From: Terriglobales bacterium
GTDB lineage: Bacteria > Acidobacteriota > Terriglobia > Terriglobales > Acidobacteriaceae
Assembly: GCA_025462725.1 (NCBI GenBank)
Contig: JAOAPE010000004.1
Coordinates: forward strand, 1-64,000
DNA length: 64,000 nt
Reading direction: 5' to 3'
Made by a program: the position numbers and the translations under genes. The notes beneath the pieces were generated by a model, which saw nothing but the letters and a program-made list of their open reading frames with translations, was not told the DNA's origin and made no database searches. Shown one piece after another: positions 5,498 through 62,826 of the stretch (positions are counted from its first letter, which is position 1; each line of letters begins with the position of its first letter).

Positions 5498-7346
<1,849 letters not shown>

Positions 7347-58083: not shown

Positions 58084-58788
58084 CTACCGCATTCTCTCCG
58101 GCAATCCGCTCGCGATCACCTCACGCACAGCCTCCATCAACTGATCGCGATCCGCAAAATCTTTCGGCGATATCGGCGGATGAAAAATCAGCGTCGCCTT
58201 CCCTTTTTTAATCTTCCACGTTTTCTTCGGCATCATCTCTTCGGTTCCGAAGATCGTCATCGGCAAAATCGACACGCCGCTCTCCATCGCCAGGTGAAAC
58301 GGCCCTTTTTTGAACGGCAACAGCTTTCCATCAGGAGACCGCGTCCCCTCAGGAAACACCGTCATGTTTACTCCCGACTTCATCACATCCGTCGCGCGTT
58401 GAATGCTCGCGATGGCCGCGTCGCGATTCCGGCGGTCCACCGGCACGAATGAAGCCATGCGCATCGCCTTTGACAGCAGCGGGATGGCGAACAATTCTTT
58501 TTTAACCATCACTGACGAACGCCTCGGGATCATCGGCACCACGAGCGGCGGATCCAGATTCGACACGTGGTTGCACATATATATGTATGTCCCCTGCGTA
58601 TCAAAGCCGTTGAGCCCACGCACATCCACATCCACTCCGATGATCCGCACACCGGTGTACGCTGCCCACATCGCCGCCCAATATAAGCGCTCAACGCTGC
58701 CCGTGATGAACGTCCATGGAATCAGCACCAGTCCGATGCTCGGGATCATCAGCAGATAGAACGCCGCGCAGATGAGGCTCCGGATCAC
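58084..58788 (-). CDS. plsC: 1-acyl-sn-glycerol-3-phosphate acyltransferase (PlsC family)
   Basis: PlsC makes phosphatidic acid from lysophosphatidic acid at the membrane. The start is GTG 58788, giving 234 residues; the frame is open far upstream but that part is antisense-like to mpl. An N-terminal span (AAFYLLMIPSIGLVLIPWTFI) precedes NHVSNLDPP (HX4D) and the FPEGTRSPDGKL motif. The GTG overlaps the mpl stop (GTGA), suggesting translational coupling. Confidence 0.93.
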   Translation of the reverse strand: MIRSLICAAFYLLMIPSIGLVLIPWTFITGSVERLYWAAMWAAYTGVRIIGVDVDVRGLNGFDTQGTYIYMCNHVSNLDPPLVVPMIPRRSSVMVKKELFAIPLLSKAMRMASFVPVDRRNRDAAIASIQRATDVMKSGVNMTVFPEGTRSPDGKLLPFKKGPFHLAMESGVSILPMTIFGTEEMMPKKTWKIKKGKATLIFHPPISPKDFADRDQLMEAVREVIASGLPERMR

Positions 58789-60215
58789 TCCCGCGCCCTC
58801 AATCGTTGCGGAAGTTTTTCGTAAATATTTCCGAAGCCGCCGTTTGAAAGGATCGCGACCACATCGCCGCTGCGCAGCTCCGGCGATATCGCATCGACGA
58901 TCGCGTCGGCATCGCGCAACTCGCGCGCATGTTTTCCCGCTGCTGCGATTTTGCTCACCACCGACGCCACTGACAACCGCTCGTCTTCCGCGATTGCTTC
59001 CGGTCTGAAGATGCTTGTGATGATGATCTCGTCCGCAATCGCAAGGCTCTCCGCCAACTCTTTCTCGAAGACTTTCCTCCGCAAAGTATTCGACCGCGGC
59101 TCGCAGATCGCCCACAGCCGCGCTCCCGCATATCGCGTTCGCAGCGCCTTCAACGTCTCCGCAATCGCCGTCGGATGGTGCGCGAAATCATCAATGATCG
59201 TGATCCCATTCACCTCAGCTCTCACTTCCAACCTGCGCTTCACGCTCTGAAAACTTTTCAGCGCATTCGCGATCGCATCTTTGCCGATTCCATATCCTGC
59301 CGCCAGCGCCGCCGCTGCCGTCGCATTCAAGACGTTGTACTCACCCGCGAGCGAGAATTCGAAATCCCCCCAAGCCGCGCCATCCTTCATCACTCGCCAG
59401 TTCGTTCGCTCCCGCGAAAACTCCAGGTCAATGATCCGCCACTTCGCGCCCTCGCTGAATCCATACCGTTCCACCGGACAAAATGCCTTCACCAAACACT
59501 CATCCAGATTCGCTCCCGCATCGTATGCGATGATCCGCCCGCGCTGCGGCACCAGATTCACCAGCCGCTTGAACGCCGTCTTCACCGCGTCCAGGTCTTT
59601 ATATATGTCCGCGTGATCAAACTCGACAGACGTGAGAATCATCGCGTCCGGAAAGTAATGCAGAAACTTCGGCCCCTTATCGAAGAACGCAGAATCGTAT
59701 TCGTCGCCTTCGATGATGAAGTGCTGCGTTTCATTCAGCGCAAAGCTGCTGCCGAAATTCTCCGCTATCCCGCCCACAAGAAACGACGGCCGCTTCCCCG
59801 CACTCTCAAATATCCACGCCAGCATCGATGTCGTCGTCGTCTTCCCGTGCGTCCCCGCCACCACCAGCGACTCGCGCCCGGTGATAAAGTCCTCATGCAG
59901 AATCTGCGGCAGTGACTTGAACGGGATGCGCTCATTCAGCATGTACTCCACTTCCGGATTTCCCCGCGAGATCGCATTTCCTACCACGATCAAGTCCGGC
60001 TTCGGATTCAAATTCGCTTCCGCATACGGCTCCATGATCCGGATGCCTCGCGCCGCAAGAAATTCAGACATCGGCGGATAGGCCGCAGCATCTGACCCCG
60101 TCACTCGGAATCCTCGCTCTTGCAGCAGTCCCGCCAGCGACGCCATTGCCGTCCCGCAGATTCCGATCAGGTGTGCGTGCTTCTGTGAATTAGGATTTGA
60201 TTTTGAATTCGACAT
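58785..60215 (-). CDS. mpl: UDP-N-acetylmuramate:L-alanyl-gamma-D-glutamyl-meso-diaminopimelate ligase
   Basis: Mpl re-attaches recycled murein tripeptide to UDP-MurNAc. The 476-residue Mur-ligase protein has the N-terminal HLIGICGTAMASLAGLL, the ATP site GTHGKTTTT, and the Mpl-type IIEGDEYDSAFFDKGPKF. A C-terminal domain follows with DDFAHHPTAI and ICEPRSNTLRR. MurC would be the nearest alternative; the DEYDSAFFDK segment favours Mpl. It lies with ldcA on the same strand (65-base gap). Confidence 0.92.
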   Translation of the reverse strand: MSNSKSNPNSQKHAHLIGICGTAMASLAGLLQERGFRVTGSDAAAYPPMSEFLAARGIRIMEPYAEANLNPKPDLIVVGNAISRGNPEVEYMLNERIPFKSLPQILHEDFITGRESLVVAGTHGKTTTTSMLAWIFESAGKRPSFLVGGIAENFGSSFALNETQHFIIEGDEYDSAFFDKGPKFLHYFPDAMILTSVEFDHADIYKDLDAVKTAFKRLVNLVPQRGRIIAYDAGANLDECLVKAFCPVERYGFSEGAKWRIIDLEFSRERTNWRVMKDGAAWGDFEFSLAGEYNVLNATAAAALAAGYGIGKDAIANALKSFQSVKRRLEVRAEVNGITIIDDFAHHPTAIAETLKALRTRYAGARLWAICEPRSNTLRRKVFEKELAESLAIADEIIITSIFRPEAIAEDERLSVASVVSKIAAAGKHARELRDADAIVDAISPELRSGDVVAILSNGGFGNIYEKLPQRLRARE

Positions 60216-60280: not shown

Positions 60281-61216
60281 TTAAGCGCCTTTGATGTTGA
60301 CTTCACTTTCCGTCACCACCAACTCCACTTCCATCCCTATCGGCAGAGCCAGGTTCGGCTGCTTGGAAACGTGTCCTGATCGCAGTCCGAATCCTATCGG
60401 CACTTTCAATTCACTGAGGGTCCGTTTGATCACTCCCTGCAACGAGTAGTCTTGTCCGCCGGGCTGCACGCAATCCACCATCTCACCGAAAACGATCCCG
60501 CGCACCTCATTCAGTTTTTCTGAGAGCAGCAGCTGCATCAGCATGCGATCAATCTGATACGGCTTCGTCGCAATGTCCTCAATGAACAAGATTGTGCCCG
60601 TTGTCTGAATTTCATAAGGTGTGCCCACCGACGCAGCCAGCATCGACAAGCACCCTCCGTAAAGAACACCCTTCGCATTTCCAGTAACCGGTTGTTTCGC
60701 CTTCGCGCTCAACTCGCGAAATGCAGCAGCTCCTGACGTCAGCACTTCCCCGGCAAACATCTCCGGACTGAAAAGCGCGTAGTCCTTCGCCACCATCGGC
60801 CCGTGAAATGTGACCATGTTCGCCTGATCGCAGAAGTATGTGAGCAGCGTGGTCACGTCGCTGTATCCCATGAAGAATTTCGGATTCGCGCGAATCACTC
60901 CCATATCGATATCGCGCAAAAGATGATTACTGCCGTATCCCCCGCGCGCACAGATGATTCCGCTGATGTCCCCGCGTTTGAACATCTCTTCAAGTTCCCA
61001 CTTGCGGCGCGTCTCATTACCAGCAAAGTACAAGTCCGATTCAAATATCGAATCGAAATAAAATGTTTTGTAGCCCATCTGCTGAAGAACGCCGCATCCG
61101 GCCTCGAGTTCATTGCGCTTCACCGCACTCGCAGGCGCAATGATCCCGAGCGCCTGATTCGCATTGGGCTTAGGGATGTTGGGGATTTTGCGGGCGGGCT
61201 GTCCAGGCTGTCTCAA
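60281..61216 (-). CDS. ldcA: LD-carboxypeptidase (peptidase family S66)
   Basis: LdcA removes the terminal D-Ala from murein tetrapeptides, making the tripeptide used by Mpl. The 311-residue protein has IIAPAS, ARGGYGSNHLL, and the Ser-Glu-His triad: Ser119 (GYSD), Glu213 (FIEDIATKPYQID) and His282 (SGHVSKQPNLALP). No signal peptide, so it is cytosolic. An upstream neighbour of mpl on the same strand, it completes a recycling pair. Confidence 0.94.
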   Translation of the reverse strand: MRQPGQPARKIPNIPKPNANQALGIIAPASAVKRNELEAGCGVLQQMGYKTFYFDSIFESDLYFAGNETRRKWELEEMFKRGDISGIICARGGYGSNHLLRDIDMGVIRANPKFFMGYSDVTTLLTYFCDQANMVTFHGPMVAKDYALFSPEMFAGEVLTSGAAAFRELSAKAKQPVTGNAKGVLYGGCLSMLAASVGTPYEIQTTGTILFIEDIATKPYQIDRMLMQLLLSEKLNEVRGIVFGEMVDCVQPGGQDYSLQGVIKRTLSELKVPIGFGLRSGHVSKQPNLALPIGMEVELVVTESEVNIKGA

Positions 61217-61300: not shown

Positions 61301-62128
61301 TTACAAATAGAAGAACTCTCCATCGCAGACGATCTCCGCCGGACCTCTCAAGAAAAGGTTCTTCTCCCAACGCACTTGCTGTGTTCCGCCGGGCGCAACC
61401 ACCCTCACCGGAGACTTCACTGCACCCGAAACAATTGCCGCCGCTGCTGCTGCGCTCGATCCCGTTCCGGATGACTGCGTCTCTCCCACACCACGTTCGA
61501 AGAAGCGGCAGGATATCTCCGCGTCACCCGTGACTTTTACAAATTCCACGTTAGTTCCTTGAGGAAAACATTTTTCTGCTTGAATCTCTTCGCCTGTCTT
61601 CTGCCAACCAAAATGAAAATCGTTCACGAACACCACAAAGTGCGGATTTCCCATAGATACGATCGTTCCTCGCACCGTTCGGGAATTCAGGAACAACTCG
61701 AATTCCGGAAACGTCTGCGGCTGGCCCATGTTCATCTCAAACTCGAAGTGCAGTCCTGAGTCTGAGTGCGACGTCAACACGCAATGTTTCACGCCCGCCC
61801 CGGTGCGCACGCGCACATTGCTGCCGCGTCCTTCTTCCTTCAACAACCAGTACGCTGCCACACACCTGGTGCCGTTGCCTGAAATCTCCGCTTCGCTTCC
61901 ATCGGAGTTGATCAGCCTTGCATCCACATCAGCGTCATCTGATTTGCTTTCCGATATCCACTCCACTCCGTCCGCGCCGATTCCCAGATGCGGATGGCAC
62001 ATCCTCTTGCTCAACTCATGTATGTTTTCAGGAGCAATCGCCGAGTCCGCGATCAGGAATGTGTTTCCGCAAGCCGTCGCCTTTACGAATGGCACATGCA
62101 GCGCGGAATTTGCGCGGATGTCGTTCAT
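61301..62128 (-). CDS. dapF: Diaminopimelate epimerase-like protein with both catalytic Cys replaced by Ser
   Basis: DapF interconverts LL- and meso-diaminopimelate for lysine and cell wall. The 275-residue protein has family segments FVKATACGNTFLI, GIGADGVEWI, DGSEAEISGNGTRCVAAY and GNPHFVVFV. The residues that normally carry the two catalytic Cys are Ser83 (ISGNG instead of CGNG) and Ser220 (ETQSSGTG instead of ETxxCGTG). Fold membership is clear, but epimerase activity is not assured. ATGA overlap with mgtC (4 bases) suggests coupling. Confidence 0.8.
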   Translation of the reverse strand: MNDIRANSALHVPFVKATACGNTFLIADSAIAPENIHELSKRMCHPHLGIGADGVEWISESKSDDADVDARLINSDGSEAEISGNGTRCVAAYWLLKEEGRGSNVRVRTGAGVKHCVLTSHSDSGLHFEFEMNMGQPQTFPEFELFLNSRTVRGTIVSMGNPHFVVFVNDFHFGWQKTGEEIQAEKCFPQGTNVEFVKVTGDAEISCRFFERGVGETQSSGTGSSAAAAAAIVSGAVKSPVRVVAPGGTQQVRWEKNLFLRGPAEIVCDGEFFYL

Positions 62129-62826
62129 TCGCTTTCCATATCGCGCAGCATGTCAACCCGTTCAATGCCCGTGCACTTGCGAAGTTTTTCCGTCAGCGCC
62201 ACATGGTCGCGGTGCTTCGCTTCTACCGTGAACTGCACGCGATGCCCGCCGTTACCCTGCCCCATCTTCACTGTTTGCATGATGAGCCGCTGCTCTTCGA
62301 GTATGCGATTCACCTCGGCCAACATTCCCTCAGGGTCTTTCGACCCCACCTCGTAGCTCATCAATACAGACTTGAAATTGAATCGCGCTTCCACCCATCC
62401 CAACACATTCAGCGCCAGCAGGATCACCACAGTAGCAAACGTTGCGGACAGATACTCACCGCCGCCCACCGCCATTCCGATCGACGCCACAACGAACAAT
62501 GTTGCCGCGGTGGTTATTCCACTGACGGACCCACCGGAATGCAAGATGGCGCCTGCGCCAATGAAGCCGATACCCGGAATGATCTGTGCGGCGATCCGAT
62601 TGTGATCGAGTGTTCCTTGGCTATATCGGAAAGACAGCAACGTGTACATCGCCGATCCGAAGCAGATGAACATGTTGGTGCGCAAGCCTGCCGGCTTATG
62701 TTTAAGCTCTCGCTCCAACCCGATGATGCCACCAAGTATCGCCGCGATCAGCAGCTTCAACACAGTGTCGGAGACGAACGTCGCCATGTCCATGTGCGGA
62801 GTGAGCGCATCCCATATCTGTTTCAT
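62125..62826 (-). CDS. MgtC/SapB family membrane protein
   Basis: This 233-residue protein begins with a cytosolic helix. Four or five spans follow (LLIAAILGGIIGLERELKHKPAG, GIGFIGAGAIL, TTAATLFVVASIGMAVGGG), with the family motif ERELKHKPAGLRT. A C-terminal ACT-like domain (about 155-233) follows. MgtC proteins affect magnesium and ATP homeostasis. Its stop overlaps the dapF-like start. Confidence 0.93.
   Translation of the reverse strand: MKQIWDALTPHMDMATFVSDTVLKLLIAAILGGIIGLERELKHKPAGLRTNMFICFGSAMYTLLSFRYSQGTLDHNRIAAQIIPGIGFIGAGAILHSGGSVSGITTAATLFVVASIGMAVGGGEYLSATFATVVILLALNVLGWVEARFNFKSVLMSYEVGSKDPEGMLAEVNRILEEQRLIMQTVKMGQGNGGHRVQFTVEAKHRDHVALTEKLRKCTGIERVDMLRDMESE

Follow-up and report, generated by a model that had tools for sequence, protein, structure and literature searches.

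A DapF-type protein with serine at both catalytic cysteine positions is probably a diaminopimelate epimerase in Acidobacteriota

Our analysis of a 64,000-nucleotide stretch of Terriglobales DNA (hereafter the window) highlights a gene of the dapF type (61301..62128, minus strand) whose 275-residue product carries serine at the positions of both catalytic cysteines of diaminopimelate (DAP) epimerase, and which is probably a genuine LL-DAP epimerase that carries out two-base proton transfer with this Ser/Ser pair. The Ser/Ser state is found in most of the sampled Acidobacteriota families and is not a feature of one genome, and in the genome that holds the window no known route to meso-DAP other than this protein was found. 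Our searches of open-access journal papers returned no description of a natural Ser/Ser DAP epimerase.

The reading frame is intact, starts with ATG, and its product passes the curated cut-off for DapF over its full length (TIGR00652 cut-off 114.65 bits, score 197.6 bits, aligned to positions 3-269 of the 270 in the model), with a match to PF01678 that is likewise above threshold (152.3 bits, cut-off 34.7). The initial annotation had placed Ser83 and Ser220 at the positions of the two proton-shuttling cysteines, and alignment with solved DAP epimerases agrees with it to the exact residue number. Ser83 (codon TCA, 61880..61882, minus strand; context AEI-S-GNGTRC) replaces the first catalytic cysteine, Cys73 of H. 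influenzae DapF, and Ser220 (codon TCC, 61469..61471, minus strand; context GETQS-S-GTGSS) replaces the second, Cys217. As TCA lies two base changes from any cysteine codon, a single sequencing error is ruled out at Ser83. Because the catalytic cysteine pair is missing, we treat the protein as a Ser/Ser variant that would work like DapF and not as a standard member of the family. A relocated cysteine that takes over catalysis was considered and rejected; no such residue was found among the columns that are mostly cysteine in the Ser/Ser clade, of which residues 44 and 89 are also cysteine in the Cys-type proteins, and residues 164 and 225 are more variable and are Phe and Ser in the window protein itself.

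An AlphaFold2 model built from six sequences only (pLDDT 74, pTM 0.72) predicts a DapF-like fold of two pseudosymmetric domains, in which Ser83 directly precedes helix 84-97 and Ser220 directly precedes helix 221-233, the same helix N-terminal placing that is described for the catalytic cysteines of DapF (PMC12039745). All but one of the top 15 PDB matches of the model are DAP epimerase entries, the exception being O-ureidoserine racemase; the best of them, DAP epimerases with Z scores up to 22.8, outrank PhzF, PrpF and the hydroxyproline epimerases. The Cys/Cys DapF proteins of TIGR00652 from H. influenzae, E. coli, Anabaena and C. glutamicum (VIA-align Z 18-23, 23-30% identity) resemble the window protein in fold, in length, in the residues that contact DAP, in the placing of the catalytic pair at helix N-termini and in pathway context. 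O-ureidoserine racemase (7vdy), a natural-product enzyme that relies on cysteine, is a relative in both sequence and fold (phmmer 2e-29, Z 21.1) but acts on another substrate. The histidine racemases HisR and CntK share the fold (Z about 16-17) and a cofactor-free two-base mechanism, but employ a Cys/Cys pair on histidine, and the PhzF/YddE family is alike in overall fold (Z about 16-18) at an identity of only 10-16% and differs from DapF in its chemistry. Two enzymes of the proline racemase superfamily, 4-hydroxyproline 2-epimerase (Ser/Cys) and trans-3-hydroxyproline dehydratase (Ser/Thr), have a DapF-like fold and keep their function although Ser takes the position of a catalytic Cys (PMC4113996), but they form a separate sequence family with other substrates, and only one residue of the epimerase pair is Ser. 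The hydroxyproline epimerases share a common fold with the window protein at 13-14% identity; membership of the window protein in the proline racemase superfamily was rejected, as a Pfam scan yields PF01678 alone (E up to 0.001).

Five residues of Anabaena DapF, namely Asn66, Asn164, Asn197, Glu215 and Arg216, grip DAP at its distal end, Asn13 binds the alpha-amine, and Gly76, Asn77, Gly225 and Thr226 bind the alpha-carboxylate (PMC12039745). The equivalents in the window protein are N74, N161, N193, E211, R212, N22, G84, N85, G221 and T222, and both the Asn/Asn/Asn/Glu/Arg set for the distal end and the helix N-termini for the alpha-carboxylate are present. N74, N161, N193, E211 and G221 are identical in all 132 Ser/Ser proteins of our collection, N22 and R212 are kept in 131 and N85 in 128 of these 132, and position 222 is Thr or Ser across the set. 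The columns that separate the Ser/Ser from the Cys/Cys proteins are 83, 220, 92, 209 and 17; besides the catalytic pair itself, position 92 is Ala in the former and Arg or Lys in the latter, and position 209 is Phe or Ile as opposed to Thr or Val. The second shell, to which the changes at 92 and 209 belong, also differs at position 163, which aligns with the conserved His. Each of the 48 Cys-type proteins has His there, whereas 44 of the 124 main-type Ser/Ser proteins have Gln, Val, Asn or Ala. Judged by the alignment, the Ser/Ser site appears to have released a part that is invariant in the Cys type while retaining its grip on DAP. The same alignment holds no Ser/Ser-specific Lys, His, Asp, Glu, Tyr or Arg that is obviously able to activate a serine.

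The genome, which is estimated to be 100% complete, has a clear need for meso-DAP and no other known source of it. The genes asd, lysC, dapB and dapA are clustered on contig C56, lysA scores above its cut-off, as in 38 of the 41 genomes, the murE product matches the DAP type (550.5 bits, cut-off 373) and mpl is present; aminotransferases occur, none of which exceeds the cut-off for the LL-DAP aminotransferase DapL. A search with PF01678 returned a single gene and no second dapF, Cys-type or other, which answers the check that the initial annotation had proposed; the only other match, of 13 bits at 6566-6715 of the window, lies inside a 559-aa frame that we take to be groEL from its length and sequence. 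Meso-DAP dehydrogenase (Ddh) is below its cut-off in 41 of 41 relatives and is missing from this genome, by which the Ddh bypass was rejected. A survey of 297 genomes across the phylum gave Ddh in two, G118 and G225 from family f31, and the DapF proteins of these two are Cys/Cys (L067, L040). The glutamate racemase MurI of the window's genome (216.5 bits) retains both of its cysteines (ACNTA, GCTHY); there is thus no general avoidance of cysteine, and general cysteine loss was rejected as the cause of the Ser/Ser pair. A bifunctional DapF/glutamate racemase (NF038284) was also rejected, at 71.3 bits against a cut-off of 350 and with a separate MurI present. Our search of the open literature returned nothing on the peptidoglycan chemistry of Acidobacteriota. 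The serines had earlier been read as a sign of an altered reaction, a different substrate or reliance on another epimerase. The last is disfavored because the genome holds neither a second DapF nor Ddh, and the second because the residues that hold DAP are kept; what is favored is an altered catalysis, in which other catalytic residues would act on the ordinary substrate to give the ordinary product.

The gene lies in a minus-strand series in the order mgtC, dapF, ldcA, mpl. Upstream, a gene for an mgtC/sapB-family membrane protein (62125..62826, minus strand; PF02308) overlaps the dapF start with its stop (ATGA); downstream lie an ldcA-like gene for an S66 LD-carboxypeptidase (60281..61216, minus strand; PF02016, PF17676) and, two genes from dapF, mpl (58785..60215, minus strand; TIGR01081 456.6 bits, cut-off 388.7), which encodes the ligase for L-Ala-gamma-D-Glu-meso-DAP. 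The cell-wall context that had been proposed from mpl and ldcA is borne out by the profile matches of both neighbors and is retained through the window's family (f1), where every sampled locus has an LdcA homologue beside dapF and most have MgtC and Mpl homologues nearby. Outside this family no murein neighborhood was seen beyond single MgtC matches, and the commonest families of 50 neighbor proteins include no common dap operon across the phylum. As the murein neighborhood is confined to family f1, it is no guide to the function of the whole clade.

We collected 183 DapF sequences, made up of relatives, a phylum-wide draw, five named Acidobacteriota loci and eleven plasmid-borne references from other phyla, and the letters at the two sites are Ser/Ser in 132, Cys/Cys in 48 and Cys/Ser in 3. 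The nearest named relatives of the window are classified in Acidobacteriota, and its placement in the phylum was based on them. The Acidobacteriota rows with a known family (n=167) divide into 127 Ser/Ser, 38 Cys/Cys and 2 Cys/Ser, and among the matches listed 33 of the 48 families have Ser/Ser proteins alone and two (f31, f44) are mixed, counts that lean to high-scoring matches and are not unbiased rates because the listed phylum matches reach down to ~193 bits. In the mixed families the Ser/Ser and Cys/Cys genes reside in separate genomes, and DapF matches in the phylum survey are nearly always one per genome. Both serines are present in 124 of 124 main-type homologues, whose pairwise identity has a median of 38% and a minimum of 25%; at this divergence two invariant serines represent a strong constraint. 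Each site is encoded by TCN as well as by AGY codons. In a tree of 89 rows, all 53 rows of the main Ser/Ser type fall together with a support of 100/99, as a single, ancient clade.

The tree sets apart from the main clade another Ser/Ser lineage, which comprises families f25 and f68 and in f25 shows the motif SGNGLRIF. Genomes of family f25 contain a Cys/Cys DapF that is divergent and fails to reach the TIGR00652 cut-off, and some of them an additional Ser/Ser homologue with the motif SGNGLRIF...ASGSSSC; the loci concerned are L066 and L114 (G280, G101), L220-L222 and L226. Beyond Acidobacteriota our sampling consists of plasmid records, among which a plasmid of Streptomyces sp. NBC_01216 (L240:2992-3936) encodes a distant Ser/Ser homologue (MSGNGLRMF, ASGSGAC); Ser/Ser variants therefore also occur outside the phylum. 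The genes around it, which may form a natural-product cluster, encode a molybdopterin oxidoreductase, an aldo/keto reductase, a 2OG-Fe dioxygenase and an iron-containing redox enzyme. Natural homologues with Cys at the first site and Ser at the second are L125 (G046, f11), L191 (G060, f21), in which Phe replaces the conserved His, and L207 from a Burkholderia cenocepacia plasmid. Most Acidobacteriota Cys/Cys DapF proteins (L098, L101, L102 and others) form another branch, where Val usually replaces the Asn of GNPH that binds DAP (GVPH; EVPH in L098). Two low-scoring DapF-like proteins, L225 (G262), the sequence of which is covered in part, and L237 (G326), which also carries SGNGLTIF, end in FERGEGPTLSSGSSATAVA with an inserted stretch. 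One Ser/Ser genome has a second, Cys/Cys DapF-like gene (L235, G191:C114) whose match holds one in-frame TGA and which is possibly recoded or on a contaminant contig. No viral relatives were found in viral_contigs, and BFVD gave no confident match.

The surroundings of the Acidobacteriota Ser/Ser DapF suggest that it has retained its normal job, and we infer its catalytic activity from its fold, its conserved serines and DAP-binding residues, and the absence of known alternatives. In the mechanism that we favor, LL-DAP derived from tetrahydrodipicolinate would be bound, and the domains would close, as in ordinary DapF, with the contacts to the distal amino acid and the alpha-carboxylate retained. 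In place of the thiol/thiolate pair, each of the two central helices would present a serine hydroxyl at its N-terminus. Inside the closed, water-excluding site, one serine, either acting as an alkoxide or relaying to Glu211 or an active-site water, would remove the alpha-proton, and the other would donate a proton back from the opposite face. This would invert one alpha-carbon and yield meso-DAP, which would then pass to LysA for lysine and to MurE and Mpl for peptidoglycan. The least certain part is whether the serine would be the base itself or only a relay. The pKa of the serine hydroxyl is far above that of the cysteine thiol. Single Cys-to-Ser mutants of HisR show greatly reduced turnover (PMC11602996), and Cys-to-Ser mutants in the DapF fold have been employed to hinder catalysis for crystallization (PMC12039745), though a natural Ser/Ser enzyme with a co-evolved second shell need not act like a point mutant, and 4-hydroxyproline 2-epimerase of the same fold functions with a Ser93/Cys255 pair (PMC4113996).

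We also weighed a reading, to us a doubtful one, in which the protein does epimerize DAP but the serines serve only in substrate positioning or as proton relays, and the transfer itself falls to Glu211, a trapped water or groups of the substrate. Glu211 is invariant across all Ser/Ser proteins, the freedom of the aligned His163 to vary implies that the site was rebuilt, waters lie near the proximal alpha-amine in the DapF site, and in H. influenzae DapF Glu208, which corresponds to Glu211, is close enough to reach waters (PMC12039745). Yet both serines are invariant despite codon switching, which suggests that their hydroxyls matter, and the hydroxyproline epimerase keeps its activity with Ser for Cys (PMC4113996). 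It is rather improbable, in our judgment, that the protein is no DAP epimerase and converts DAP or a similar amino acid in some other way, for example in murein peptide recycling, while an enzyme of another kind makes meso-DAP. The loss of both catalytic cysteines and the murein-recycling neighbors LdcA and Mpl in the window's family would accord with this, as would the occurrence in family f25 of another Ser/Ser lineage alongside a divergent Cys/Cys DapF and the Streptomyces plasmid homologue among redox enzymes that resemble a biosynthetic cluster; residue conservation would also be compatible with a partial or different reaction on DAP. Such a reading, however, requires an undiscovered epimerase across most of the phylum and sits poorly with the retained DAP contacts, the neighborhood outside the window's family defines no separate role, and the f25 sequences are a separate lineage which the Streptomyces homologue resembles in motif. 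A pseudogene or an artefact of assembly or sequencing is extremely unlikely, given the intact frame, the two-change distance of TCA from cysteine, and the pair of serines shared by 124 main-type relatives, which come from many independently assembled genomes and form one supported clade.

Cofactor-free racemases have been a standing puzzle, in which a weak base must act on a very weakly acidic proton, and a recent explanation invokes a cysteine thiolate together with the exclusion of water (PMC12039745). For the broader proposition, that a thiol-free Ser/Ser pair removes an alpha-proton of pKa about 29 without a cofactor and that this enzyme, fixed early, is the normal DAP epimerase of Acidobacteriota, we see the balance as even. 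If it is true, enzymes of this class could do without a thiol/thiolate pair, and DapF inhibitors aimed at the thiol would be expected to fail on the Ser/Ser enzyme, which bears on DapF as an antibiotic target. It also carries a warning for the annotation of DapF, in that the absence of catalytic cysteines does not equal inactivity. Should the role as DAP epimerase hold, these bacteria would have an unrecognized way to a difficult chemistry, and a natural, apparently essential Ser/Ser version in most sampled Acidobacteriota families makes the role of the thiol readily testable.
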